Shown here one piece after another: positions 33,563 to 47,731 of a stretch of DNA of 64,000 nucleotides. The stretch is from Cohnella herbarum. Its GTDB lineage: Bacteria > Bacillota > Bacilli > Paenibacillales > Paenibacillaceae. The position numbers and the translations under genes were made by a program. Within the stretch, counting starts at the first letter, position 1. Every line of letters begins with the position of its first letter. The stretch lies in contig NZ_CP051680.1 of assembly GCF_012849095.1 (NCBI RefSeq), positions 3,746,501 through 3,810,500 on the forward strand, written 5' to 3'. The notes under the pieces were generated by a model. That model saw nothing but the letters and a program-made list of their open reading frames with translations, did not search any database and was not told the origin of the DNA.

Positions 33563-35698
33563 CTACTCCTCTTTTCCCCCTTTCCCTTCCTTCTTTTCCT
33601 TATCTTTCTTATCTTTCTTATCTTTCTTATCCTTCTTATCTTTCTTGTCATCCTTTTCATTTTTGTCTTTATTTTTATCTTTATTTTTATCTTTCTTATC
33701 CATATTCCCTTTCTTATCTTCTTTCTTGCCATTCCCTTTATCTATTTTCCCGGTTACGGGACGCTTGAACTCGGATACCGGAACCCCCTTTAAAGCCAAT
33801 GACATCATCTCTTTGAAAATTAATGCCGGATATTGTCCGCCTGAAGTCGTTAAATAATGCTTGCTATCCGTATTGTCGTAGCCAAGCCAAACCGCCCCTA
33901 CCAATTCCGGCGTATAACCGACAAACCAAGCGTCTTTGGCACCGCCGGTAATCCCTGCGAATTGTTTGTTCCGCGGAAGCTGCGTCGTCCCCGTCTTTCC
34001 CGCTACCGGACGGTCCATGGCTGCATTTTTTCCCGTTCCTTCCCGGACTACGTCACGCAGCAACTCTGTCATCGCGTAAGCATTCTCCGGTAACATAGCT
34101 GCAACCGATTGAAGCTCGGCCTCAGCTAATATTCGTCCATCCGTTGTAGTAATTTTAGTAATCGTATGAGCTTGAACCTCTGTCCCCAGATTAGGAAAAA
34201 CACTGTAGCCCTGCGCCATCTGAAGCGGGGATAGCCCTTGGGACAGTCCGCCCAACGCCAAGCTTAGATTGTTATCTTCTTCACTGAGCGGAAGTCCGAG
34301 CTTCTCCACAAACGCTTTCCCGGTTTGCAGTCCAATCTCGTTCAATAACCATACCGCCGGAATATTCCTCGATTGAATAACTGCATCTCGAAGCGATACT
34401 TGCCCCAAAGTTCGATGATCTGAATTTTCCGGCCTATAACCATTTATATCTAGCGGACCGTCATACAGCATCGATTTAGCATCATACCCGTTTTCCAGGG
34501 CAGGCGCGTAGACCATCAGCGGTTTGAATGCCGATCCGGGTTGTCTAACTAGCTGCGTTGCGTGGTTGAACCCGCGAAATACATGTTCACCCCGTTGCCC
34601 CACGATTCCGCGAACGCCTCCGGTAGACGGGTCCATGATAACCGCTCCACTCTGTACAAGTTGATCGGTTGCGCTTTGCGGAAACAGAGAATCATTACGG
34701 TACGTTTGTTCCATCGCGCTTTGAACGACTGGGTCCAGTTCCGTGTAGATGAGAAGATTTCCCGCTAACAGCTGGCGCTCGGTAAATCCATATAATTCGA
34801 TAGCCTCATCGATCACTTCATCGGTATACGAAGCATATTGACCTAGCAAATGGTTTTGCTGTTCCGACGGAACCTTGTTGAGTACATGAATCGGCTCGAC
34901 AATGGCTTGGTTGTACTCGGCTTTCGAAATAAAAGCTTCATCCCGCATTAAGCCGAGCACAAGATTTCTTCGCTCCAACGCGAGTTCCTTATTCTTAAGG
35001 GGGGAATAACGACTGGGGGCTTTCGGCAGCGCGGCCAACAAGGCGGATTCCGCCAACGACAAATCCTTCGTATCTTTGCCAAAATACCGCTTAGCCGCTC
35101 TCTGTATCCCCCACTGGCCTTCACCGAAGTAAATTTGATTCAAATACATTTCGAGTATCTCGTCTTTATTATACGAAGATTCTATTTTGAGGGCATAGGC
35201 TGCTTCCGTCAGCTTGCGCGAGAACGTTTTTTCACCGGTTAAAAAAACGTTTTTGGCGAGTTGCTGGGTAATCGTGCTTCCCCCCTGCGCTACCCCGCCT
35301 TCCTTCGCATTGCGGAAAACGGCTCTAATAATGCCAAAGGCGTCCACGCCGGTATGATCGTAATATCGCTTATCCTCGACCGCGACGATCGCTTGCTGCA
35401 TATGTAGCGGAATTTGGTCGAGCGATACGTGCTCTATTTTGACGGAAATCATCTGGGAGCTTGGCTCGCCGTTCCTATCTATCAATTGAGTCGGAGCTAG
35501 TATGGGAACAACCAGCTTCTTAATATCAAGAGAATTGATCCAATAGGCTCCGATCGCGACAAGCGTCGTAAACGCGAGGAGGAATGCGATGATCAGAACA
35601 CGAAATCTTTTCATAAATCTATAGAAGCCGGAAAAGCGTGTCATTCTGGAGTCGGTGCGGGTATTTCCTTGTTCCTTATGTACATTCTGCTCTCTCAT
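33563..35698 (-). CDS. Class A penicillin-binding protein (PBP1A family)
   Basis: 711 residues: short cytoplasmic N terminus, one membrane anchor (about 33-53), glycosyltransferase GT51 domain (about 75-250; catalytic Glu108 in EDKRYYDH, and GGSTITQQLAKN), and a transpeptidase domain with the three active-site motifs SAFK, SRN and KTGTT. It polymerises and crosslinks peptidoglycan at the outer membrane face. The last ~70 residues are a low-complexity Lys/Asp tail (repeats of Lys-Asp-Lys) rather than a folded domain; it could bind anionic wall polymers. AGGAG precedes the ATG at a good distance. It lies downstream of, but separated by a terminator from, the polysaccharide operon. Confidence 0.93.
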   Translation of the reverse strand: MREQNVHKEQGNTRTDSRMTRFSGFYRFMKRFRVLIIAFLLAFTTLVAIGAYWINSLDIKKLVVPILAPTQLIDRNGEPSSQMISVKIEHVSLDQIPLHMQQAIVAVEDKRYYDHTGVDAFGIIRAVFRNAKEGGVAQGGSTITQQLAKNVFLTGEKTFSRKLTEAAYALKIESSYNKDEILEMYLNQIYFGEGQWGIQRAAKRYFGKDTKDLSLAESALLAALPKAPSRYSPLKNKELALERRNLVLGLMRDEAFISKAEYNQAIVEPIHVLNKVPSEQQNHLLGQYASYTDEVIDEAIELYGFTERQLLAGNLLIYTELDPVVQSAMEQTYRNDSLFPQSATDQLVQSGAVIMDPSTGGVRGIVGQRGEHVFRGFNHATQLVRQPGSAFKPLMVYAPALENGYDAKSMLYDGPLDINGYRPENSDHRTLGQVSLRDAVIQSRNIPAVWLLNEIGLQTGKAFVEKLGLPLSEEDNNLSLALGGLSQGLSPLQMAQGYSVFPNLGTEVQAHTITKITTTDGRILAEAELQSVAAMLPENAYAMTELLRDVVREGTGKNAAMDRPVAGKTGTTQLPRNKQFAGITGGAKDAWFVGYTPELVGAVWLGYDNTDSKHYLTTSGGQYPALIFKEMMSLALKGVPVSEFKRPVTGKIDKGNGKKEDKKGNMDKKDKNKDKNKDKNEKDDKKDKKDKKDKKDKKDKEKKEGKGGKEE
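33587..33712. repeat. Low-complexity 9-bp repeats encoding the Lys/Asp tail
   Basis: Repeats of the type TTATCTTTC (9 bp, Asp-Lys-Lys on the minus strand) and TTTATTTTTATC fill the 3' end of the PBP gene. Slippage would alter tail length in whole residues without breaking the frame. Confidence 0.75.
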
Positions 35699-35821
35699 AG
35701 CTGTCTCCTACTGTGGAAAATCGTATTATTAACCCGAAACTGATGGCTTAAGTCTATTTTAATAATGGGAAAAGTTCATCTTGGAGTCAAATGAATATTC
35801 TACCAAGTGTTTTCGCGATTT

Positions 35822-35860
35822 TAAAAAAGCCGCCCAGAAGAGAGAACTCTTTGGACAGCT
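35822..35860 (-). terminator. Terminator of the polysaccharide operon
   Basis: On the minus strand AGCTGTCC pairs with GGGCGGCT (two G-U pairs), followed by six T. It lies about 18 nt after the stop of the last operon gene. Confidence 0.8.
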
Positions 35861-35877
35861 TCTTATTTTTGTTATGA

Positions 35878-37116
35878 TCACTTTGCTTCCCCAACCATTG
35901 CGGCCCAGCTTTTGTAGTCGTGAATAGCCATTCCGGCATAACCGGCATATCGGGAAAGCTCATGATGAGCGGTTTGCAGCTCTTGCTCCATGAAATCCAC
36001 GCTTTTGGAATAAAACGTAACGCGATCGCCTTCAGAACTTTTGGCGGTTTCCACGGCAACGATCGCTTGCTTGTCAAGAGCGGAGGCTTCTCTCAACATG
36101 GCATGGGCATTGTCGACGATGCCGTTCTTTCCCAACGCATGATTGCGATAATCCATGATCGCAAGGCAGTCGAACTTCTCCAATAACCACGCGCTAAAGC
36201 TATATTCGGTGTCGGGTACTTTCACATTATTAAGCCAATAAGGGACATCCAACGCGATCTTCAAGCCGCTCCCTCTGGTTTCCTGATCGATAAATCTTAA
36301 ATTATGTATCCATTGTTCAAGAATCGTCTTATTTTTTGTTTCCCATTCGGCCAAAAGATAAGGTTCAATATCGAAATGCAGACCATCAAAACGTTCTTCC
36401 GATCCCACGGACGCATTGTATCGCATCGTCCAGGAAATAAATGATTTTATTTGATCCTGATTCGACTTAAGAGCCCAATCGGGACGGCCCGCCAGAGCCT
36501 CCACTCTGATTTGTTTTTCTTTGGCGCTTCGAATAAAGTCCGCATACGCGCTAAGCGCAACATCCCTATTCATCTGAAGGTAGATGGCCGTCACGTCATG
36601 ATCGCTCGCAAAGCCTAGGATTTGATCTTGATCCTTTTCGATGATGCGGCTATCCCAAATCCAAGTTCCTTTAGGAATTTTCGGTGAAGTTGTCACGACG
36701 GCAAGATTGCGTTCCGCATCCCACTCCACCTCAGCTTGAAAGATTTCGCCGATCAGCCGAAGCGGAATCATCGTACGGTTATTTTTGATCGTCGCCGGCG
36801 TTTCGACGGTTACCGTCTTCCCATTCACTAGCGCATCGTTTTGGCCTATCGTTAAGAGGATCGTTTGATCTTTCAGCGAAAAAGACACCTGGTTTGATTT
36901 TCCGATCCATTTCATCTTTGCGCCCAGTTTTTCGGATACGAATCTTGCCGGTACCATCGTACGGTTGGATTGGCGATCGACATACGGAGGTTCATCCGGG
37001 AAAATCACATTCTGCCCATTCACGAAGACTTTAACTTGAGAGCCGGCAAGAACGGCGGGTACGAAAATGGCCGCGCCTAAGACTATAACCAGAAGACAGA
37101 TTAGCCCTCTCTTCAT
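35878..37116 (-). CDS. Secreted stalk-domain protein with GH18-like TIM-barrel
   Basis: 412 residues: signal peptide (about 1-24), a copper-amine-oxidase-N1 type domain (about 27-145; NRTMVPARFVSEKLGA and NRTMIPLRLIGEIF), which in Firmicutes serves as a wall-associated module rather than an oxidase, and a C-terminal barrel-like domain (about 150-412). The barrel contains FDGLHFDIEPYL (Asp244, Asp249, Glu251), close to the DxxDxDxE catalytic motif of GH18 glycosidases, although the second Asp is His. The same domain occurs in the 38494-39426 gene. It starts 6 nt after the glmM stop, so it is the last gene of the operon. An extracellular polysaccharide hydrolase or lyase is inferred; no characterised family was recognised. 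Confidence 0.8.
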   Translation of the reverse strand: MKRGLICLLVIVLGAAIFVPAVLAGSQVKVFVNGQNVIFPDEPPYVDRQSNRTMVPARFVSEKLGAKMKWIGKSNQVSFSLKDQTILLTIGQNDALVNGKTVTVETPATIKNNRTMIPLRLIGEIFQAEVEWDAERNLAVVTTSPKIPKGTWIWDSRIIEKDQDQILGFASDHDVTAIYLQMNRDVALSAYADFIRSAKEKQIRVEALAGRPDWALKSNQDQIKSFISWTMRYNASVGSEERFDGLHFDIEPYLLAEWETKNKTILEQWIHNLRFIDQETRGSGLKIALDVPYWLNNVKVPDTEYSFSAWLLEKFDCLAIMDYRNHALGKNGIVDNAHAMLREASALDKQAIVAVETAKSSEGDRVTFYSKSVDFMEQELQTAHHELSRYAGYAGMAIHDYKSWAAMVGEAK

Positions 37117-37122
37117 ATCCGA

Positions 37123-38475
37123 CTACCTAAATTCCAATTCTTCTTTAATGACATCGACGATATGATCTACAAAGCTTGCTAGCTCTTGCTCGCTCGGGCC
37201 CTCTGCCATGACTCGCACGATCGATTCCGTGCCTGAAGGGCGAACCAGCACTCTTCCGCTTCCGCCCATCTTATTCTCTACCGACCGGACTGCTTCTTCG
37301 ATTTTGGGATTCCCCGCCAGCTTCGACTTGTCCTCCACTTGAACATTCACCAGAAGCTGCGGGTACTTGGTCATGCATTGGGCAAGCCCGCTTAGCGGCT
37401 CGGATTGGGACTTCATCACGTTCATCAGTTGGATCGCGCACAGCATGCCGTCTCCAGTCGTACTATAGTCCAGCATTACGATATGACCCGACTGTTCTCC
37501 ACCCAGGTTATATCCGCCTTGTACCATTTCCTCCAAGACATAGCGATCTCCGACTTTGGTTTGTTTCGCCTCCACTCCCTGTTTCTCCAGCGCCTTATAG
37601 AAGCCTAGGTTGCTCATCACGGTAGAGACCACCGTATTATTCTTCAACCGATGCTTTTTCTTCATGAATTCAGCAAGGATATAGAGGATATGGTCCCCGT
37701 CCACGATCGTTCCCTTCTCGTCGACGGCAATGAGCCGATCCGCATCCCCGTCGAAGGAAAGGCCCAGATCGGCCCGATGTTCCACAACCGCCCGTTGAAC
37801 CGCTTCAGGGTGCGTAGAGCCGCAATCTTCGTTAATATTCAACCCGTCCGGTTGATGGGCCAGTACAATCGTGTCGGCACCCAAATCGCGGAAAAGCCGG
37901 GGCGCGAGCGCCGATACCGCTCCATTGGCGCAATCCAAGACCACTTTGAGCCCTTCGAATCGCTGATTGACCGTGGACTTTAAGTAAGAGAGATAAGCCT
38001 GACCGCCTTCGGGATCATCCTGAACCGCACCCACATCGGCGCCGATCGGACGAGGAATCCGATCCTCATCCGCATCCAGTAGCGATTCAATCTCCGATTC
38101 CATTTCATCCGACAGCTTAAATCCGTCGCCGCCAAAAAATTTAATCCCGTTATCCTCCACAGGGTTATGAGAAGCCGAAATCATCACCCCTGCATCCGCT
38201 CCTCTTGATTTCGTCAAGTACGCCACGCCTGGCGTAGAGATGATTCCTACGCGGATAACATCCGCGCCCATCGATAATAAACCTGCAACAAGAGCCGCTT
38301 CCAGCATTTCTCCCGATATGCGGGTATCTCTTCCTATTAATAGGGTAGGGCGTTTTCCTTGCTTATTCCGAGTCAACACGGATCCTCCCGACCGGCCTAA
38401 ACGAAACACCAGTTCAGGAGTCAAGTCCCTGTTTGCTACGCCTCGTACCCCATCCGTTCCGAAATATTTACCCAT
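37123..38475 (-). CDS. glmM: Phosphoglucosamine mutase
   Basis: 450 residues, the usual GlmM length. The N terminus [12 protein letters not shown], the active-site loop ISASHNP with phosphoserine Ser102, the metal-binding DGDADR loop and the C-terminal phosphate-binding [11 protein letters not shown] are all present. It converts glucosamine-6-phosphate to glucosamine-1-phosphate for UDP-GlcNAc synthesis. In most Bacillales glmM follows cdaA and cdaR (ybbR) and precedes glmS. Here it lies inside a polysaccharide operon with none of these genes beside it, so it may be an extra, operon-dedicated copy that supplies precursor. Only the rest of the genome can settle that. Confidence 0.95.
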
Positions 38476-38493
38476 ACGTATCGTCCTTCCCTT

Positions 38494-39426
38494 TCATTTT
38501 TGCAGGTCGGATTCCGAGGCTTCTTTCCAATTTTCGTAGTCATGGATGGAGAAGCCTTCATATCCGTTATGCCACCGCATGAAAATATGGCTCAACTGCA
38601 TTTGTCGGCGCAAGCTGGAGGTTCCCTTTCCGTAAAAAGTGACGTGCTCCCCTTCGTCCGTAGGCCCCGTTTCCAGTCCTACGATAACTGGTTTGCCTGC
38701 TCTGGTTCCTTCTCTGATCATCGGCAGAGCATTGTCGATAATTCCGTTCTCTCCGATGGCGAAATTCCGGTAATTCATGAGCACCACGCGGTCGAGTTGC
38801 TCGATCATCCATGCGCCCAAACTTACGTCATCGCGAGCAGGAATCTTATGAATCCAGAAAGGAAGATCGGCCGATACTCGCAAGGATTCGTCCTGCTTCA
38901 CCCTTCCGACCAAATACGTCACATTCTCCATCCATTGGCGAACGGTATCGTCGCGATCCTGTTCCCATTCCTTGAGCAAATAGGGTTCAATGTCCATGTG
39001 GATGCCGTCAAATGCGGCTTGTTCGCCCACGGCGCCGTGATAGTCTTCCAACCATTCAATAAAGGAGTCGATTTCCTGTCGATAATCGGTTAATCCCCAC
39101 GTCGGATCCCCTCCCAACGCCTCGACTTCAATCCCTAATCCGTGCGCTTCCTCGACGAAGGCTCGATACGGTTCGAAGTCTTTGGATTTCCGGTCGACGT
39201 GCAGGAAGATCGCGTTCACTCCTTGCTCTTCGGCAAAAGCGAGCATTTTGCCTTTGTCTTTCGTCAACGTCGTCGTATCCCATACCCAGGTTGCCATAAC
39301 GGGCGGCTTTTCGGATTTCCATTTCAGCATAAGAACCGTTGCGATCGCCATGCAGATTAGCAAGGCGATCAGGATGATTTTTAGAAATGACAACTTTTTT
39401 GAAGATTGGAGCTTAAGCGCCAACAA
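38494..39426 (-). CDS. Membrane-anchored GH18-like TIM-barrel protein
   Basis: 310 residues with an N-terminal membrane anchor (about 13-35) and an extracellular barrel-like domain. It is a paralogue of the C-terminal part of the 35878-37116 protein. Shared blocks are W-V/I-WD at the start, FDGIHMDIEPYL (Asp140, Asp145, Glu147), MNYRNFAIGENGIIDNA, VTFYGKG and IHDYENW. The start codon is TTG (39426 or 39423), overlapping the end of the dehydrogenase gene by 14 nt with a weak ribosome binding site, so translational coupling is likely. Predicted to act on the exported polymer, possibly as a glycosidase with Glu147 as acid; this is inference from the GH18-like motif. Confidence 0.78.
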   Translation of the reverse strand: MLALKLQSSKKLSFLKIILIALLICMAIATVLMLKWKSEKPPVMATWVWDTTTLTKDKGKMLAFAEEQGVNAIFLHVDRKSKDFEPYRAFVEEAHGLGIEVEALGGDPTWGLTDYRQEIDSFIEWLEDYHGAVGEQAAFDGIHMDIEPYLLKEWEQDRDDTVRQWMENVTYLVGRVKQDESLRVSADLPFWIHKIPARDDVSLGAWMIEQLDRVVLMNYRNFAIGENGIIDNALPMIREGTRAGKPVIVGLETGPTDEGEHVTFYGKGTSSLRRQMQLSHIFMRWHNGYEGFSIHDYENWKEASESDLQK

Positions 39427-40765
39427 GAACTTTCACGTCTTTTTGATGAATTCCGGTTCCCAGTTTGTGAATGTTATCCGACTTGATATCCGCAAAAGCA
39501 TTGCGCGTATCGATGATCGGAACGCCCATCTCCGCCAGCTCATGATAGCTGAAGCTTCGGTGATTGGTAACCAACACCATGCAATCGTATTGGGAGAAGG
39601 CATCCGTATCGTATTTTACCGTATGGACGCTGTGACCCTGCTCGTCTTGGAACGAAGTCGCATACGGATCGTAATAGTCGACTTTCGCTCCGCTTTTTTT
39701 GAACAATTCATAGATTTCCAAGCCGGGAGATTCGCGCAGATCGTCGATATCCGGCTTATAGGACATGCCTAAGATCAGCACTTTCGAGTTGCGGATCGAT
39801 TTCGCGTACACATTTAGGACATGAGCCGTTTTGTTCAATACGTATTCCGGCATATTATCGTTAATCGATTGGGCCAATTCGATAAACTTGCTATAGAAAC
39901 GGAATTCTTTGGCTTTCCAGGACAAATACATCGGATCCAGAGGAATACAGTGACCGCCGATTCCCGGTCCCGGATAGAAGGACATGAATCCGAACGGTTT
40001 CGTTGAAGCCGCTCGAATGACTTCCCACACGTCAATGACCATTCGATCGCACATCATGGCCAATTCGTTGACGAAAGCGATATTGATGCTGCGAAACGTA
40101 TTTTCAAGCAGCTTGGACATCTCTGCCACTTTAGGAGAAGACACCGGGACGACGGTTTTGACCACATTGTTGTACAGCGTTACCCCGAGTTCTTTGCATT
40201 TCTCGGTCGTTCCGCCAATGACTTTAGGCGTATTGTACGTATTGAAGTTCGGATTACCCGGATCCACTCGTTCCGGCGAGAAGCAGAGGAAGAAATCCCG
40301 GCCTACCCTTAAGCCCAGAGCCTCAAGCTCGTATTCAATCAATTCTTCCGTCGTTCCGGGATACGTCGTGCTTTCCAGGACGATCAAGGTTCCTTTTTTG
40401 ATATAGTTTTTGATCTCGTTCACGACGCTCACGATAAAAGAAGTGTCCGGATCTTGGTTTTCGCTGAGTGGAGTCGGTACGCAGATGCTGATCGTATCCA
40501 ATTCCCGAATCGTTTCGAAGCGGTTCGTCGGCACAAACTTTCCGCTGCCCACGGCATCTGCCACCACGGAGCTTGGCACGTCTTGAATATAGGATTCTCC
40601 GCCCAGAAGAGACTCTACTTTACGCTCATCCAAATCAATGCCATAGACGGTAAAACCGCCTTTCACCATTTCCATCGATAGCGGCAAGCCGACATACCCG
40701 AGGCCAACGACGCCTACCTTCGCCGTTTTATTTTGCAAATTTTCTTTTAATATGTTGTATGTCAT
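39413..40765 (-). CDS. UDP-N-acetylglucosamine/UDP-sugar 6-dehydrogenase (WbpA-like)
   Basis: 450 residues. Rossmann motif GLGYVG (21-26), the family block ESTTYPGTT (131-139) and the catalytic cysteine Cys273 in GPGIGGHCIPLDP are present, followed by the C-terminal domain with YKPDIDDLRESP. These enzymes oxidise C6 of a UDP-hexose twice with NAD+ to give a uronic acid. The details (GTTEELIEYELE and the GIGGHCIPLDP loop) fit the WbpA/UDP-GlcNAc branch better than UDP-glucose dehydrogenase, though specificity is not certain. With GlmM in the same operon the likely product is UDP-N-acetylglucosaminuronic acid, a precursor for the adjacent GT2 synthase. GAGGAG ribosome binding site. Confidence 0.88.
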   Translation of the reverse strand: MTYNILKENLQNKTAKVGVVGLGYVGLPLSMEMVKGGFTVYGIDLDERKVESLLGGESYIQDVPSSVVADAVGSGKFVPTNRFETIRELDTISICVPTPLSENQDPDTSFIVSVVNEIKNYIKKGTLIVLESTTYPGTTEELIEYELEALGLRVGRDFFLCFSPERVDPGNPNFNTYNTPKVIGGTTEKCKELGVTLYNNVVKTVVPVSSPKVAEMSKLLENTFRSINIAFVNELAMMCDRMVIDVWEVIRAASTKPFGFMSFYPGPGIGGHCIPLDPMYLSWKAKEFRFYSKFIELAQSINDNMPEYVLNKTAHVLNVYAKSIRNSKVLILGMSYKPDIDDLRESPGLEIYELFKKSGAKVDYYDPYATSFQDEQGHSVHTVKYDTDAFSQYDCMVLVTNHRSFSYHELAEMGVPIIDTRNAFADIKSDNIHKLGTGIHQKDVKVLVGA

Positions 40766-40793
40766 GTTCTATCCGCTCCTCGAATTCGCAAGA

Positions 40794-41597
40794 TTAATGG
40801 TTCTCGGTCAGTCTTTTGATTTTCCATTCCAATTCGGAGATCGACAGAGGTTTAGTCACATAGTCGGCAGCCCCCGACTCGTAAGCCCGATTCCTGTTTT
40901 CCGAGAGCTGCCTGTCCGTCAGAACGATCACCTTGCCTTCATGCGAATCCTGGCGCTGGATGGTGCGGATGAGTTGGTACCCATCCAGGATAGGCAAATT
41001 CAATTCGGTAATGACGATGTCCGGCATGATTTGAACGAATAGATCGTAAGCCTCTTGCCCGTCTTTGGCTTCGTATACGAGATACCCCTTCAGCTCCAGT
41101 CGGATCTTGATGAATTCGCGAACGAGATCGTCGGGATCGGCTATCAGAACGGACGTCTCGGCATTGGCCGCCGTGAAGAAATGAATGTCATCATCGTTCC
41201 CCTTGCTCCGAATCGCCCGTTGAATGAAATCCGCGATCGCGGTCTCGGTCGGTTTTGCGCTCTCCGGAAAGCTGGATACGATCAATTGCCCTAACAGCAG
41301 ATGCTGAGTTTGAAGAAAATCTTTTAAGACGAGAGACGCATAATGAGTAGTGCCCAAGGTCCCGCCGTCCAATACGGCGCACAAAACCTGATTCGCGTCG
41401 TCATAGATCAATTGGACGGAAAGAGAGGCATCGTTCTTCCTCATTAGCCCTTTTGCCTGATCAAGCGTTTTGGGGTTCATATTCGCGCATGGAGCCAGAA
41501 TGACTCCGCACGTAGCGCTCTTCGCGGTCGCCACGTGAATGTATTGTAAAAGCTGCAGCGTGATTTCCTGAATTCCGTTGCGAATCACAATGGCCAT
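40794..41597 (-). CDS. Pseudo-receiver protein with unknown N-terminal domain
   Basis: 267 residues. The C-terminal part (about 150-265) is a receiver domain with acidic residues Asp154/Asp156, Thr227 in VLTD and Lys249 in YVTKP. The phosphoacceptor position in PDIVITELNLPILDG is Glu198 instead of Asp; the codon is GAA and is unambiguous. A Glu there usually mimics the phosphorylated state, so the domain may be constitutively active or a protein-interaction module. The N-terminal ~145 residues match no family I know with confidence. The pattern LxAVLDGG...QLIVSSFPES faintly recalls a degenerate GGDEF domain, which is only a hypothesis. There is no DNA-binding output. It sits between the synthase and dehydrogenase genes, suggesting post-translational control of polymer synthesis. 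Confidence 0.8.
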   Translation of the reverse strand: MAIVIRNGIQEITLQLLQYIHVATAKSATCGVILAPCANMNPKTLDQAKGLMRKNDASLSVQLIYDDANQVLCAVLDGGTLGTTHYASLVLKDFLQTQHLLLGQLIVSSFPESAKPTETAIADFIQRAIRSKGNDDDIHFFTAANAETSVLIADPDDLVREFIKIRLELKGYLVYEAKDGQEAYDLFVQIMPDIVITELNLPILDGYQLIRTIQRQDSHEGKVIVLTDRQLSENRNRAYESGAADYVTKPLSISELEWKIKRLTENH

Positions 41598-41628
41598 ATT
41601 TCCACTCCTCTAATAGATATCCGGGAAC

Positions 41629-43071
41629 TTATTTATTGAAATTGGTTCTAACCATCGTTCCCCACGAATTATTGTTGCGGAAGAAGTCGATGTGTCCCAA
41701 GAACCTCCACAGAACGCCGACTTGACGATAACCGAGAAACATGAGGAAAGAGTAAATCATCATTTTGTTGAGATCGCTCAGCTTAGGATAACGACTAAAA
41801 GCTTTTTCTTCGATATACAAAGCTCCGAGACTAAGAATGAAGCAGGAGAAGAAGTTCACCAGCATAAAGACGGCGACCGTTTTCCAATCCGCCATATTCA
41901 GCAGCCAATACCCGATCATGGCGAGTAAGCCGCTCAAACGGAAGTACGGGTTCAACGTTTCGAATAGAATGTTATAAGGAAGCGTTAAAAGTCCGAACAC
42001 TTTGTAACGGGGGCGGAATACCATATGGATTCCTTCTTCGATCATGTTCTTCAAGTTGCCGCGGCCCCAACGCATCCGTTGGCTGCTTAGAATCCGGTAC
42101 GTATCCGGCGCTTGCGTCCAACACACGGCATCCGGGCAAAAGGCGACCTGATAAGGGATTTTGTTCTCCAGGCAATAACGGTGCAGCTTGATGACGATGT
42201 TCATGTCTTCCCCGGGGTATCCGCCGCGGTAACCGCCTACGGCAATCACTTTATCCTTCTGAAAAACGCCGAAGGCGCCGGATACGATGATCAATCCGTT
42301 AACGGAGCTCCAACCGATCCGACCGCCTAAGAAAGCTTTGATATACTCTACGTTCTGGAGAGCCGGCCACCATTGTCTGGGAAATCTAATCTTTTTAACG
42401 ATTCCGTCTTCTACCGTGCAACTGTTAAGGATTCGAACGTTGCCCCCGACCGCCACCGTTTCTTCGGGATTTTCCATATACACTCTGGCGATTCTGGTCA
42501 GCGCATCCTTCTCTAATAGCGAATCCGCATCGATCGTAGAGATCAACGGATGGCGGGAAAGATTGATCCCGGCATTCAAGGAGTCCGCCTTCCCTCCGTT
42601 CTCTTTATCGATGAAATACAAGTTCGGATATTCCGGATTATGATAATAGCCTCTGACCTGTTCGGTTTTAATCCGTTTGGCAACGATAGGCTTGATTTCT
42701 TTCAGTTGAAACTCTTCGATCATGATTTTGGCCGTATCGTCTTTAGAGCCGTCGTTCACGACGATGACCTCGTATTCCGGGTAATTCAAGGCCAATAAGG
42801 AACGAACGTTTTCTTTAATCATTAACTCTTCGTTATACGCCGGGACTAGCAGCGATACCGGCGGTACGTGTTCGGATCCGGATAGCTTCCGTACGCGATT
42901 ATATCGAATCCCTCTTTGAAGAGGAAACGTATGCCGAATCGATAGACCGAAAATCAGGAAATAAATGAATGTAATCGCCAACGCGTAATACATGGCGAAG
43001 TAACCGTATCCTAATAGAAATTCGCGCAAGAAGTTCGCGGCTTGTTGTAAATAATATTCCAGCATCCTCAT
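41629..43071 (-). CDS. Processive GT2 glycosyltransferase (polysaccharide synthase)
   Basis: 480 residues: membrane segments near 22-45, a cytosolic GT2 domain (about 70-340) and three or four C-terminal membrane segments (about 350-450). The processive synthase residues are visible: VPAYNEE and NDGSKDD for UDP binding, DAD at 181-183 for the metal, the catalytic Glu-Asp at 288-289 in GYPGEDMNIV, and QRMRW (331-335) of the Q-x-x-R-W motif. Such enzymes make and extrude poly-GlcNAc, hyaluronan or cellulose-like chains. No PilZ domain is attached. The operon supplies UDP-GlcNAc and probably its uronic acid, so a GlcNAc- or GlcNAcA-containing polymer is the best guess. GGAGGG ribosome binding site at a good distance. 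Confidence 0.9.
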   Translation of the reverse strand: MRMLEYYLQQAANFLREFLLGYGYFAMYYALAITFIYFLIFGLSIRHTFPLQRGIRYNRVRKLSGSEHVPPVSLLVPAYNEELMIKENVRSLLALNYPEYEVIVVNDGSKDDTAKIMIEEFQLKEIKPIVAKRIKTEQVRGYYHNPEYPNLYFIDKENGGKADSLNAGINLSRHPLISTIDADSLLEKDALTRIARVYMENPEETVAVGGNVRILNSCTVEDGIVKKIRFPRQWWPALQNVEYIKAFLGGRIGWSSVNGLIIVSGAFGVFQKDKVIAVGGYRGGYPGEDMNIVIKLHRYCLENKIPYQVAFCPDAVCWTQAPDTYRILSSQRMRWGRGNLKNMIEEGIHMVFRPRYKVFGLLTLPYNILFETLNPYFRLSGLLAMIGYWLLNMADWKTVAVFMLVNFFSCFILSLGALYIEEKAFSRYPKLSDLNKMMIYSFLMFLGYRQVGVLWRFLGHIDFFRNNNSWGTMVRTNFNK

Positions 43072-43098
43072 TATTCGTTGCCCTCCTAAACCTGTAAG

Positions 43099-44268
43099 CT
43101 ACACAACCCGATAGATTCGTTTGTACTTGCCGAACGTTTTCTCGTAATGGTAAACCAACGAATTATATCGCGTCAGTCGGTCAAGGTCATGGAGCCGTAA
43201 CGAAAGAGATTGGATCTGTTCCTCGATAAGTATGCGGAGGTTTTCCCCTTGCACCGACCCTCTTGCTTCCGCGGCGACTCCGCACAATTCGGCGATTCCT
43301 CCTTCTCCAAGAAGCAACAACCCTCTCGCGCTGGCATCGGATACTCGCATGCTTTCATCCAATAAGGCGTTTCTCATGACATCGATATACGTCGCCAGCT
43401 TCAGATCGGCAATCGCTTGAAGCGCGAGGACGCGCACTTCATCCATCGGATTCCTAAGCAGCTTTTGAATGACGTTTCGGGGGATAAAGTGAACGGATTT
43501 CAGATAGATTTCCACGGCTTTATATTGAATGGTTCCGTCCGGAGAATCGATGAGACGATAAACAGCCGATGCCACCGTCGGCTCGGTATAGTCTTTCAAT
43601 CCGCACAAACCGATGTGTATGAATTCATGTCTCTCCCGTTGAATGAATTCGGCAAACAGCGACCCATGGTCGATATCCGCTTCTTTAATCATGTCGACCA
43701 GCAAATCGTAAAATCCTTTGTTATGCCTTAGAACAATCTGCACCATTTCCTTGACGTCCCGTTCGTCGCGAGCGCATTTGGCGATCGAACGGGCGATGAC
43801 GAAGAGGGAAGAATTCCGTTTATGCGTTCGGAGAAACTCGAGCAAAGCCGGAACGGCTTCCCGGACTCTCATGCAGCCTAAGTGATACGCCGCATCGATT
43901 TTCACGGAATAAGAACCTCTTTCCAAACGGTTCAGATGAACTTGCACCAGTCCCAAGCGTTTGCACAGCTCCATGCATTTGTCGCGGGTCGTTCCGGTAA
44001 AATTCTCGATCATATCGTTCAACCGTTCTTGCATCGCTTCTTGTTCCGCTTGGTTCAATGAAAACGGCGGTGCGTTCAACGGTTCTTGGCCTTCGATATT
44101 GACCAGTACATAGGTAAGGTAATCTTTGAATTTGACCTCGAACCTGCGTTCCGTTCCGGTTTTTCTCAACTTTTTGATTTTCATGGCATACACCGCGAAT
44201 GCGAATCCGACATTCAGAACGATGAGAGCATACAGAAATTTGATCGCCACTTCGATGTTGATATACAC
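43099..44268 (-). CDS. HEAT-repeat membrane protein
   Basis: 389 residues, GTG start with GGAAGG. One N-terminal membrane helix (about 8-29) is followed by a helical cytosolic domain with HEAT-like repeats (patterns DAAYHLGCMRVREAVPALLEFL, in pieces around residues 125-145, and MDEVRVLALQAIADLKLATYI around 265-290). HEAT solenoids are protein-binding scaffolds, so it may dock the synthase, the pseudo-receiver or other partners at the membrane. It lies directly upstream of the synthase gene with a 27-nt gap. I know of no characterised homologue with this role. Confidence 0.8.
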   Translation of the reverse strand: MYINIEVAIKFLYALIVLNVGFAFAVYAMKIKKLRKTGTERRFEVKFKDYLTYVLVNIEGQEPLNAPPFSLNQAEQEAMQERLNDMIENFTGTTRDKCMELCKRLGLVQVHLNRLERGSYSVKIDAAYHLGCMRVREAVPALLEFLRTHKRNSSLFVIARSIAKCARDERDVKEMVQIVLRHNKGFYDLLVDMIKEADIDHGSLFAEFIQRERHEFIHIGLCGLKDYTEPTVASAVYRLIDSPDGTIQYKAVEIYLKSVHFIPRNVIQKLLRNPMDEVRVLALQAIADLKLATYIDVMRNALLDESMRVSDASARGLLLLGEGGIAELCGVAAEARGSVQGENLRILIEEQIQSLSLRLHDLDRLTRYNSLVYHYEKTFGKYKRIYRVV

Positions 44269-44290
44269 AAATAAAACCCTTCCTTCCCCG

Positions 44291-46534
44291 CTACTCGGAT
44301 ATCGGTTGATTCACCGGTTGATTGACTTCCCGCATCGCTTTTTGCATGATATCGTAACTTTGTTTTGGGCGTTCTACATAGTCGACGTCGATATCTTCCC
44401 ACCTTTTCCACGTGTAAAGCGGAAGTTGCGATACCGGATACGGGTTGTTGCCTTCGAGTCCGACGACTTCCTTCGAATCCTTGCGAACGATCCATGGAAC
44501 AAGGCGAACGCCTTCGACTTTCACGGATTCAAATTCTTTCGTTCCGGTATCTTCGTAACTAATGGCGCTTAGCGAGCTGGGATCGCTGAACCCTAGCAAC
44601 ATCCACGGAATCCGAATTTCCAATACGTTGCCTTTGGCCTGCCATATCGCCTTTGAATTGTAGTTCGGATCTTGCGGATCGCTCGTTCCTCTCGGCAAAT
44701 CTCCTACTCGGATGTCGCCGAATGGATGATCGACGCGGGCATCCGGATGTTCGAGCAAATAATTCACGACCAATTTCCATGGATTGAAGATTCCGCTATC
44801 ATCCTCCAATTCTTGGGGATCATATGCCAGTATTTTCGATAGCTTGCCGTAGAATCGGGTATGGAAATCATAATTGGAGGCAATCATCATCTGCCCGGCA
44901 TCCTCGTTATCGAGTTCGATCAACGTTTCCAGTCCTTCGTCCAACGTCTTTCCTTGGAGTTGCGGCGCATGGCGATTGCCGCCCTTTAACGTATCGAACC
45001 CTAAATAGATAGAATGATTAGAAAATTCTAAAGATTCGGATAAATTAATCGAGAGATATAAATACCCTTCATCGTGCGCGGCCCATATTTCATTAAAACC
45101 TTCGATCTGTAGATCAAGCTTAGTCTTATCTCCATCATCGAGCTTGTCCCAATCCGAAGCATCTCCGTCAATGCGAATCACGTCGTCTTTACTTGGATAC
45201 ATGCCGAGTACCCCGAAATGGGATTCGTTCGTGAGCGTGTTATACCAATAAGCCCGTCGATCGGGAATGTCGTAGTGCATCGTGTTCCAGGTTTTCTTGA
45301 ACCACTCGTCCTGCCAAGTAAACAAGATCGCGCCGGAGTATCCCTCCTGATGGATCTGACGGAACATATCCGCATCCATGTTCCCTTGCGTCTTGTCGTC
45401 GTGCCCTCCTTGGTTGCGCCCCAGCATGCCGGTATGGGCAATGCCTTGGGAGGCGGGAACGCCGAACTCGGTAATCATAATCGGCATATCGTTATGGTAT
45501 TTCTTTAGCTTATGCAGATAGGTTTTGTAGCTATCTATTTCCCCTTTATCGTTTTTCATCGTTTGAAACGATTGGTCGAAGGTAAAGAAGTCGGGATAAT
45601 AAGGGTAAACGTGATAGGAAGCAAAATAACCGGCATCCCAATCTACGGCTGCGATATGAGTCGGATCGACGCTGACCATATCTTCGGCAACCAATGGCTC
45701 GCCCGGATGTTCAAGCGGATCGGTGGTCACCCAATTCGAGAAGGCGATCGGATGCTGCCATCCGTGCTCGGCTTCCGTTACGGCCGTGATGTCGACCATC
45801 TCGGCCAACCATTTTTCGAAGGGATTAGCCCCGGGTTTGCTTTGAAAATGTTCTCCTTTATAATCGGCGACGTCGGCATTGCTCTTATTCGTTCTATCCA
45901 CCATTACTGGATCCCATTCCGTGCCGACGATCCAACTCATGAGATAGGGCCCTGCGTTAAAGACGTATTTCCCGCTGGCTTTGCCGGAATGCGCTTCGGC
46001 TTCGAGATCGATATTTCCGTACACCGCTTCTACGGCCTCTCGAATCTCTTTTTCAAACTTCTGTTTGACTTTCGGATCAAAGGCGTTCTGAACTTCGATT
46101 AATTGTTCTTCCGGACTCCATACCCCTTGAATGAAGAAGAGCGGATTATCCGAATGCTTCGCGTTATATCGGACCAAAGCTTCGTAAAACTCCGGTTTTA
46201 GAATGGTATACACGCGAATGACGTTGGCGCCCATCTCTTGAACCATCTCAAACCATCTCATATAGTCGTCTTTCGAAATTTCAAGCTCGCCGGGAAAATG
46301 TCCGGGAACCGCCGCTCCCATATTGACCCCTTTGGCAAAATAAGGTTTCCATGATTGGTTTTGAAACTGTTCGATTCGAGTTCCGTTCGTTTTGAATTTC
46401 ACCTTAACGCCATTATCGATCTCGGCGCTTTCTACCTTGGCAACAGGCGGCATCAACCAATAAGCGACTGCTCCGCCCGCGATTACGACAACAAGTCCTA
46501 ATTTGACTAAACCGCTCTTGAATAACTTTTTCAT
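44291..46534 (-). CDS. Membrane-anchored clan GH-A-like hydrolase with C-terminal CBM9/DOMON-like domain
   Basis: 747 residues from the ATG at 46534. The ATG at 46540 abuts the GAGGAAG ribosome binding site and is too close. An N-terminal signal anchor (about 8-30) is followed by a TIM-barrel domain (about 60-430) with features of clan GH-A glycosidases: GTEWDP with Glu206 as a candidate acid/base and MITEFGVP with Glu356 as a candidate nucleophile. A beta-sandwich resembling CBM9/DOMON (IRIDGDASDWDKL, LYLSINL) completes the protein (about 450-735). It is the first gene of the operon. It is probably an extracellular enzyme that trims or transfers the nascent polysaccharide. Confidence 0.82.
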   Translation of the reverse strand: MKKLFKSGLVKLGLVVVIAGGAVAYWLMPPVAKVESAEIDNGVKVKFKTNGTRIEQFQNQSWKPYFAKGVNMGAAVPGHFPGELEISKDDYMRWFEMVQEMGANVIRVYTILKPEFYEALVRYNAKHSDNPLFFIQGVWSPEEQLIEVQNAFDPKVKQKFEKEIREAVEAVYGNIDLEAEAHSGKASGKYVFNAGPYLMSWIVGTEWDPVMVDRTNKSNADVADYKGEHFQSKPGANPFEKWLAEMVDITAVTEAEHGWQHPIAFSNWVTTDPLEHPGEPLVAEDMVSVDPTHIAAVDWDAGYFASYHVYPYYPDFFTFDQSFQTMKNDKGEIDSYKTYLHKLKKYHNDMPIMITEFGVPASQGIAHTGMLGRNQGGHDDKTQGNMDADMFRQIHQEGYSGAILFTWQDEWFKKTWNTMHYDIPDRRAYWYNTLTNESHFGVLGMYPSKDDVIRIDGDASDWDKLDDGDKTKLDLQIEGFNEIWAAHDEGYLYLSINLSESLEFSNHSIYLGFDTLKGGNRHAPQLQGKTLDEGLETLIELDNEDAGQMMIASNYDFHTRFYGKLSKILAYDPQELEDDSGIFNPWKLVVNYLLEHPDARVDHPFGDIRVGDLPRGTSDPQDPNYNSKAIWQAKGNVLEIRIPWMLLGFSDPSSLSAISYEDTGTKEFESVKVEGVRLVPWIVRKDSKEVVGLEGNNPYPVSQLPLYTWKRWEDIDVDYVERPKQSYDIMQKAMREVNQPVNQPISE

Positions 46535-46603
46535 TGCCATCTTCCTCGTGTGTGAAATCTAGTTGTCTATCCAGCAATGGTATCTCTCATTCGGCCTCCA
46601 AGT

Positions 46604-46633
46604 ACTGTAGCACAATGCGACAAACCCATTCAA
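46604..46633 (-). promoter_or_regulatory. Candidate promoter of the polysaccharide operon
   Basis: Minus strand -35-like TTGAAT (46633-46628), 18-nt spacer, -10-like TACAGT (46609-46604), about 70 nt upstream of the first gene. The rest of the 315-nt divergent gap 46535-46849 is AT-rich with no other clear element seen. Confidence 0.35.
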
Positions 46634-46849
46634 CCAAACCCGAGCATTACCGTCATTAACAATTTTTTAGAACTTTAATAATGATTGAAAAATGTGCGGC
46701 AGTCTTATACGGCCTGGTCTCATTAAGTTGTAATTAGGTCAGACTTTTTTACGGCTATCGATACTGCAAATAATGATTAAATTCAAGGAAATAGCCGGCT
46801 ATGTTAAAATAACCCTATATTGCGGTCAATGAAGGAGTCGGCAATCGCC

Positions 46850-47731
46850 ATGTCCAGAGAACGTAAAAGCCTCATAGAGCGGATTGAGCTGAAAGGTAAT
46901 TTTTTTCTGCACTATCGAGTAAAACACGGGAACTCTTACTTCTTTCACGCCCATCAAGGAATTGAATTCCTATACGTTCACCAGGGCAACGGTCACGCGC
47001 TCGTCAACGACCAACTCGTGAAGATGGAACCCGGCACGCTGCTCCTGTTTCAACCGTTTCAGTTGCACCAAATTCATATGGAATCGGGATCGGACTATAT
47101 TCGAACCGTACTCGTCTTTGATCCTACTTTAATCGATAAGCAGCTTGCGCAATTTAAGTCTCTGCAGCTTTTTTTCCGGTGGCTGTGGCACAATGAGATC
47201 CCCATGCAACACTTTCCCTTTGGCGAGCAATCCGGCGAAATGGAACGTCTTCTGGAGGTTTACCATATGGCGCTGCAGACGGATGTACAGGAGCTTCGCA
47301 CCGAGGAGATCGGATTATGCATGATCGCGCTGCTGCAACTGTTACGCCGTTCCTTCTTCTCCAAACAGGATGTATCCGCATTCGCAAGCCAACCTCGAAC
47401 GCTCCGTTATGCCGAGAAAGTGATGCAGTGGGTCGAGTCTCACTATCAGGAACAATTCGACTTGTCCAAACTGTCGGACCACTTGTTCGTTTCTCCCTCT
47501 CATATTTCCCGACTCTTCCATAAGGAAACCGGGGCAACGATATCGGATTACGTGACCGCCAGACGGTTGCGCGAAGCTTGCTTGCTCTTGGCCGCTACCC
47601 AGTTATCCGTTCGAGAGATCGCCCATAAAGTCGGTCTGTTGAGCGGCCCGTATTTCGGCAGACTGTTTAAGAAACAATTCGACGTCACCCCTCTGCAATA
47701 CCGCAATCGAATGAGAAGCCTTTCACGGTAA
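46850..47731 (+). CDS. AraC family transcriptional regulator with cupin sensor
   Basis: About 293 residues from the ATG at 46850; in-frame TTG 46820 and ATG 46829 are alternatives, but AAGGAG at 46832-46837 fits 46850, although with a long spacing. The N-terminal domain is a cupin (HAHQGIEFLYVHQGNG, GTLLLFQPFQLHQI), likely sugar-binding. The C terminus has two AraC-type helix-turn-helices (FDLSKLSDHLFVSPSHISRLF and LSVREIAHKVGLLSGPYFGRLFKK, in parts; ending with DVTPLQYRN). It diverges from the polysaccharide operon and lies about 200 nt before the transporter-oxidoreductase-isomerase genes. It could control either; the three catabolism-like genes are the more usual target for this class. Confidence 0.88.
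   Translation: MSRERKSLIERIELKGNFFLHYRVKHGNSYFFHAHQGIEFLYVHQGNGHALVNDQLVKMEPGTLLLFQPFQLHQIHMESGSDYIRTVLVFDPTLIDKQLAQFKSLQLFFRWLWHNEIPMQHFPFGEQSGEMERLLEVYHMALQTDVQELRTEEIGLCMIALLQLLRRSFFSKQDVSAFASQPRTLRYAEKVMQWVESHYQEQFDLSKLSDHLFVSPSHISRLFHKETGATISDYVTARRLREACLLLAATQLSVREIAHKVGLLSGPYFGRLFKKQFDVTPLQYRNRMRSLSR

Follow-up and report, generated by a model that had tools for sequence, protein, structure and literature searches.

Which polymer would be built by a compact run of eight genes in Cohnella herbarum that sets a membrane glycosyltransferase of family 2 (GT2) beside a nucleotide-sugar dehydrogenase and a gene for amino-sugar supply? The run lies in a 64,000-nucleotide stretch of contig NZ_CP051680.1 (positions 3,746,501 to 3,810,500), referred to here as the window. 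In the list of open reading frames (ORFs) its genes, named A to H, stand head to tail on the minus strand at 35878-46540. A first-pass annotation, made from the letters alone, had read them as an operon for a polymer of N-acetylglucosamine (GlcNAc) and/or its uronic acid (GlcNAcA). Our results suggest that the operon probably encodes a synthase-dependent system making such a chain as an envelope or extracellular polysaccharide. Comparative genomics strengthened the main line of this interpretation, which is now partly supported: the linkage of the genes, the glmS and glmU genes added in relatives and the substrate class of E speak for it, while E is missing in 13 of 80 related loci and the chemistry is read from the enzymes. 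The direct support consists of the linkage, the families of C, E and G, the receiver of D and the predicted fold class of A; from these we infer the sugar, its linkage, the processivity and the roles of A, B, D, F and H.

Conservation of the gene run

Genes were counted as one run when the recognised genes lay on the same strand with gaps below 1.5 kb. The counts refer to the best 80 of 593 loci ranked by gene A, and hence describe the nearer relatives. A, B and C were present in the run at all 80 loci, D at 79, E at 66 and an F/H-type gene at 64, and A-B-C-D formed one run in 79, which is beyond chance. Linkage, without which the first-pass annotation would have failed, is strong in these relatives. 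The commonest order was A-B-C-D-E-F (38 loci), and E directly followed D in each of the 66 runs that contain it. A further 13 runs lacked E and were ordered B-C-D-A, preceded in nine cases by GlmS and in one by GlmM. The full window set, A-B-C-D-E-F-GlmM-F/H, recurs at two of the 80 loci (L084 and L085, from Cohnella mopanensis and Paenibacillus mendelii), and nearly so at L098; it was also seen at loci L044 and L065. The eight-gene unit first proposed shrinks to a conserved A-B-C-D, to which E and F/H are added.

Relatives of gene A were detected in 23 of 398 genomes sampled across the phylum, four of the 23 belonging to the family. In the family sample, 36 of 39 picked loci with A had A-B-C in one run. 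Outside the Paenibacillaceae, relatives occur in Brevibacillus, Aneurinibacillus, Pontibacillus, Gracilibacillus and Salibacterium, with divergent forms elsewhere in the phylum. Read with more flank (L226), locus L054 has the order B-C-D-E-GlmS-GlmU-A. The A protein of the window is 90% identical to that of P. mendelii, 70-76% to those of two Brevibacillus loci and Ammoniphilus, 64-70% to some Paenibacillus proteins, 51-59% to other Brevibacillus loci and 47-54% to many Paenibacillus loci; transfer of the operon between the Brevibacillus, Ammoniphilus and Paenibacillus lineages is possible on these identities.

Gene E and the amino-sugar supply

The first-pass annotation had called E a WbpA-like dehydrogenase, and its scores agree. 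E exceeds the cut-off of TIGR03026 (NCBIfam, 430 bits). Of the other NCBIfam models, none of which reached its cut-off, those for UDP-N-acetylmannosamine (UDP-ManNAc) dehydrogenases led (269 and 260 bits), followed by TviB (213) and the UDP-glucose dehydrogenases (162, 147 and 44). The top three relatives in the PDB are dehydrogenases of UDP-N-acetylhexosamines (UDP-HexNAc), Cap5O first, and the E motifs GIGGHCIPLDP and ENTFRSINIAFVNEL align with Cap5O and 4r16, the catalytic Cys being that of GGHC; taking these motifs as class markers is our own reading. By this evidence E is predicted to be a UDP-GlcNAc/ManNAc 6-dehydrogenase (WbpA/WecC class), for which UDP-GlcNAc appears the simpler, though not a proven, substrate.

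E could also work on UDP-ManNAc delivered by an epimerase encoded elsewhere, giving a polymer with the uronic acid ManNAcA, as in secondary cell-wall polymers or Cap5-type capsules. We consider this unlikely, although Cap5O is the best solved relative of E, UDP-ManNAc dehydrogenases are its best NCBIfam equivalogs and the genome carries three full Epimerase_2 genes. Against it, all the UDP-ManNAc models score below cut-off, no Epimerase_2 gene was found with Pfam among the eight operon genes, and the additions identified in relatives are GlmS, GlmU and GlmM (not all extra genes were typed) and include no epimerase. Note that a paralog of E, 50% identical (C1:4727488), does adjoin an Epimerase_2 gene (C1:4726394), whereas the operon has none, which we counted in favour of the GlcNAc/GlcNAcA chain.

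Supply genes accompany the run in many relatives. GlmS, GlmU and GlmM, recognised with one-sequence profiles, were present in 31, 19 and 12 of the 80 runs, respectively; 36 runs had at least one of them, 18 had GlmS with GlmU and seven had all three. GlmS and GlmU, the latter full or as its first part only, follow E in several Brevibacillus, in Pontibacillus, Gracilibacillus, Salibacterium and Ammoniphilus and in some Paenibacillus, but not in B. massiliensis (L086) or B. thermoruber (L114). When five supply proteins were scored against NCBIfam, two GlmS and a full GlmU were above cut-off; a 326-residue GlmU was slightly above TIGR01173 and slightly below NF010934, and a 256-residue GlmU fell below because it represents the first half only.

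Gene G is a GlmM (TIGR01455, 619.5 bits, cut-off 447.6). The second GlmM of the genome (G000:C1:4456953-4458287), 62% identical to G, adjoins ORFs that we named by eye as cdaA-, ybbR- and glmS-like. Where a glmM adjoins the operon, the genome has two copies at least 61% identical (6 of 6 genomes); where none does, it has one (2 of 2). In a tree of 16 glmM sequences, the operon copy of the window formed one group (support 0.93) with those of C. mopanensis, P. mendelii, P. thermotolerans, P. planticolens and Ammoniphilus. Next outside this operon group (0.98) came the second Ammoniphilus glmM (L249), 73% identical to that of the window; the remaining copies from these species lay elsewhere. GlmM was rejected as a defining gene, being in those 12 runs only.

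The synthase and its nearest known systems

Gene C matches Glycos_transf_2 (Pfam, 82 bits), and residues D107, D181/D183, E288-D289 and Q331-R332-x-R334-W335 are kept in at least 97% of 107 rows. This is the D, DxD, ED and QxxRW motif set of the membrane GT2 in synthase-dependent systems, to which C would belong. Gene B, its neighbour, matches HEAT_2 (Pfam, 37 bits) and has a hydropathy helix at residues 7-25. The families first proposed for B, C, E, G and the receiver of D were all confirmed with Pfam and NCBIfam, and so was the absence of deacetylase, PilZ and Wzx/Wzy partners among the eight proteins. Pfam found no ABC export genes there either, the extra genes of relatives not all having been typed.

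C resembles the synthase of the poly-N-acetylglucosamine (PNAG) operons pgaABCD and icaADBC, in that PgaC_IcaA is its best NCBIfam model and UDP-GlcNAc its likely substrate. PgaB carries a GH-type (glycoside hydrolase) accessory part, a feature shared with the GH-type proteins of the operon. However, C scores 149 bits against a cut-off of 422.3, the deacetylase PgaB/IcaB is absent from the eight genes, and the operon has in addition a dehydrogenase, a HEAT protein, a receiver protein and supply genes of its own. A PNAG-like homopolymer, with C using UDP-GlcNAc alone and E serving something else, would fit the best model for C and the nine E-less B-C-D-A loci with GlmS. It is nevertheless rather improbable in our view, since E stands directly after D wherever a run contains it, no polysaccharide deacetylase was found among the eight genes (Pfam) and C falls so far below the PgaC cut-off.

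Less probable again is a lipid-linked wall glycopolymer or a spore-coat polysaccharide in place of a secreted matrix polymer. The recognised hosts of these loci, which we take to be spore formers, would suit it, and wall modifications made with a single glycosyltransferase exist; but families for the initiating transferase, flippase and polymerase are absent among the eight genes (Pfam), and C has processive motifs.

Other known systems share parts of the design. The hyaluronan operon hasABC(DE) likewise combines one GT2, a nucleotide-sugar dehydrogenase and amino-sugar supply genes, but E scores with the HexNAc class and not with UDP-glucose dehydrogenases, and the operon adds A, B, D, F and H. 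Bacterial cellulose synthase (BcsA) differs in that C has no PilZ (Pfam) and reaches just 37.6 bits with the CelA model TIGR03030, whose cut-off is 699. With the Gram-positive Pel system and the yda system of Bacillus subtilis, whose PelD and YdaK are degenerate GGDEF receptors, the operon shares exported GH-type proteins and, in some divergent relatives, a degenerate GGDEF protein beside the synthase.

Pel uses PelF and PelG rather than a GT2 of the gene C type, according to the available text of PMC7112194. That text surveys 1758 genomes of 2015 and states that, before the work on Pel, PNAG alone had been characterised among Gram-positive synthase-dependent systems; the words Paenibacillus, Brevibacillus and HEAT are absent from its main text. 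PMC7117936, as far as its available text goes, concerns another system. No description of the operon was found in the literature searched (titles and the starts of abstracts), a coverage that mostly excludes subscription papers.

Gene D and its N-terminal domain

The receiver of D matches Response_reg (Pfam, 79 bits). At the phospho-Asp position, 83 of 97 sequences have Glu and 14 have Asp; the window has Glu (E198), so its receiver appears to lack the phospho-acceptor. The AlphaFold2 model (predicted local distance difference test score, pLDDT, 90.5; predicted template-modelling score 0.61) gives the first 130 residues the order alpha-beta-alpha-beta-beta-alpha-beta-alpha. This half is possibly a degenerate GGDEF domain, and the comparisons are mixed. 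Against eight GGDEF domains of the genome (14 loci have one, and the search pattern caught the signature in these eight), hhalign gave 51.7% (E 1.5e-4) in local and 16.4% in global mode, six control profiles giving 0.1-2.7%. Against three GGDEF domains it gave 7%, and against seven degenerate GGDEF domains of divergent loci 0.2%. A hidden Markov model of the N-terminal domain had no match at E 10 among 15 divergent D-like proteins, and Pfam found no GGDEF in 31 members of the D family. The whole of D matched three proteins with a GGDEF domain and a receiver (REC) at 99.8%, mostly carried by the receiver, and the matches listed in structure searches are receivers, the N-terminal half being barely probed. 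An RxxD site of the c-di-GMP-binding kind in D (R53-K-N-D56) was rejected, its columns not being conserved in the 97 sequences.

The divergent loci also encode long D-like proteins. Pfam, run on seven of them, found GGDEF then receiver in those of L058, L060 and L202, both plus Hpt in that of L075, and no GGDEF in those of L056, L194 and L207 (1086 residues). GGDEF was matched in 8 of 15 long D-like proteins: a separate L207 protein has an intact GGEEF, and seven are degenerate or nearly so, L202 keeping A-G-D-E-F and six having lost the signature. By eye, R-x-x-D at the spacing of the inhibitory site is kept in three of seven divergent proteins in the D position (L058, L060 and L075), but not in the class of the window, which in this differs from the Pel and yda receptors. 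The divergent proteins of this kind resemble PelD or YdaK. Elsewhere in the genome, another GT2 gene (G000:C1:2377743-2380709) has a weak match to GGDEF (55 bits) nearby and could be part of a yda-like system.

Putative glycosidases A, F and H

Three exported hydrolase-like proteins had been proposed in the operon. Pfam assigns no enzyme family to any of them, while fold comparisons and profile matches point to barrels of the glycosidase type in A and in F/H. Gene A has no Pfam or NCBIfam match, but its predicted model (pLDDT 89.1) has a helix at residues 2-28 followed by a barrel. Two glutamates are invariant, E207 after the strand at 199-204 and E357 in the strand at 353-358 (row numbering; E208 and E358 in the full protein). 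Enzymes of clan GH-A have one Glu after strand 4 and one at strand 7, and on the model strands A fits this arrangement.

The nearest solved folds in Foldseek are GH157, first, and GH158 with laminari-oligosaccharides, with low template-modelling scores over the whole A model (0.23-0.33). VIA gave three GH157 entries (31.0, 28.0 and 27.6) and GH2 uronidases up to 26.9, so the lead of GH157 rests on a single row. The GH157 enzyme of Labilibaculum (LaGH157) is 17% identical to A in the structure-search row; unlike it, A has a membrane anchor and no sequence match to any PDB chain. The substrate of A cannot be read from these fold comparisons. A product of the beta-glucan type, on which A would act as a beta-1,3-glucan-active enzyme, is very unlikely, even with the GH157/GH158 folds of Foldseek, the GH157 entries of VIA and weak matches to GH72 (best E 0.006) among 5 of 33 A members.

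Divergent loci, among them L059, L073, L074, L083 and L202, encode longer A proteins of 1000-1125 residues, of which the two run against Pfam gave no match, and L061, L062, L071 and L072 have tandem A genes. At L055, L079, L227-L230 and L232-L235 (one genus, eight genomes), the flanking sequence read around A holds neither B nor C, an orphan use of the enzyme. One source labels A relatives (P0006, P0014, P0024 and others) 'Family 2 glycosyl transferase'; this is at odds with the sequence and fold, and the name was probably carried over from the neighbouring gene.

F has no Pfam or NCBIfam match and matches H at 39% over its residues 42-301; H itself contains PF07833 (Cu_amine_oxidN1, 116 bits). 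The F/H family profile matches PDB entry 10yv, 'Putative GH97 from Cellulomonas fimi', at 7.1e-32, and a single sequence does so at 7.2e-17. W46, W48, D144, E146, P147 and Y148 of F are invariant in 46 rows (its row lacks one residue, so 1 is added for the protein), and the last four form a D-x-E-P-Y motif.

A model for the operon

We propose that G, with GlmS and GlmU in relatives, would feed UDP-GlcNAc into the pathway. E would oxidise UDP-HexNAc, most simply UDP-GlcNAc, to the uronate, and C, a processive-type membrane GT2, would polymerise and extrude a chain of GlcNAc and/or GlcNAcA. B may hold the complex at the inner membrane face, and D, with its unusual receiver, may set its activity. 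A and F/H, anchored outside, could cut, trim or rejoin the chain, like the accessory glycosidases of other synthase systems. In support of this model are the run linkage, the GT2 motifs, the HexNAc class of E, the operon group of glmM and the barrel folds of A and F/H.

Several observations weigh against this model. There is no known polymer, and the chemistry is deduced from the enzymes. C is far from the PgaC cut-off, and the three Epimerase_2 genes leave room for UDP-ManNAcA. The uronate is not universal: E is missing in the 13 runs, and in seven of these loci, whose genomes were searched, the best E relative is just 28-49% identical. The glmM by the B-C-D-A locus of Aneurinibacillus falls outside the operon group. 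Phylum-wide, where some of the 20 loci lie on short contigs, 7 had A-B-C together in a run, and in a further sample 2 of 10 did; in eight genomes of one genus the flanks read around A contain neither B nor C.

We tentatively suggest that the operon may represent an undescribed Firmicutes class of synthase-dependent system, built on a trio of GH-A membrane enzyme, HEAT membrane protein and GT2 and derived from an ancestor controlled by a degenerate GGDEF-REC protein. The class in the window would make a polymer of GlcNAc/GlcNAcA, supply its own UDP-GlcNAc and include two families of exported proteins, glycosidase-like and of no assigned activity. If so, it would add a further matrix system to the few worked out in Gram-positive bacteria, one with gene A relatives in 138 of 295 sampled genomes of the family, and would offer testable substrates and two glycosidase-type families lacking a Pfam enzyme family in the window's proteins.

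Layout and flanks of the operon

The minus-strand block was borne out by the ORF coordinates (Table 1): from A to H the genes are spaced by 22, 27, 31 and 28 nucleotides, a 14-nucleotide overlap, then 18 and 6 nucleotides. The start first given for A, 46534, is the second of two in-frame ATG codons, the first being at 46540. A simple hydropathy scan, a rough guide that also flags one stretch in the soluble GlmM, found one hydrophobic helix at the start of A, B, F and H and two in C.

Table 1. Coordinates of the operon genes and the terminator in the window
Feature	Coordinates	Strand	Description
gene A	44291..46540	-	749 residues; one N-terminal membrane helix; (beta/alpha)8 barrel as in clan GH-A; beta-rich C-terminal part; putative exported glycosidase or transglycosidase
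gene B	43099..44268	-	389 residues, GTG start; N-terminal membrane helix and HEAT repeats; putative scaffold
gene C	41629..43071	-	480 residues; GT2 with motifs of processive synthases
gene D	40794..41597	-	267 residues; N-terminal domain (possibly degenerate GGDEF) and receiver with Glu in place of the phospho-Asp
gene E	39413..40765	-	450 residues; nucleotide-sugar 6-dehydrogenase, UDP-HexNAc class
gene F	38494..39426	-	310 residues, TTG start; N-terminal membrane/signal helix, TIM-like glycosidase-type domain
gene G	37123..38475	-	GlmM phosphoglucosamine mutase; second genome copy
gene H	35878..37116	-	412 residues; signal helix, Cu_amine_oxidN1 domain, C-terminal F-like domain
intrinsic terminator, 3' of H	35815..35866	-	fold of -22.7 kcal/mol, z -5.4, 0/200 shuffles as good

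The terminator proposed after H holds up by its fold. It is absent from the list of a consensus scan (11 terminator-like sites, 12.3 expected), probably because its stem is bulged. The promoter proposed at 46604-46633 was rejected: a scan found 16 promoter-like sites where 14.9 were expected, no better than shuffles, and none there. Riboswitch control was rejected as well, since no Rfam match in the window reached its gathering score. In six relatives the single Rfam match was a Bacillaceae-1 RNA (80.9 bits, L120:13584-13650), which sits between B and C inside the Pontibacillus marinus operon. Finally, an AraC-type regulator gene (Pfam; 46820-47731, plus strand) is divergent from the operon, and downstream on the same strand lies a gene for a transglycosylase/transpeptidase penicillin-binding protein (33563-35698, minus strand) with a long C-terminal tail rich in Lys and Asp.

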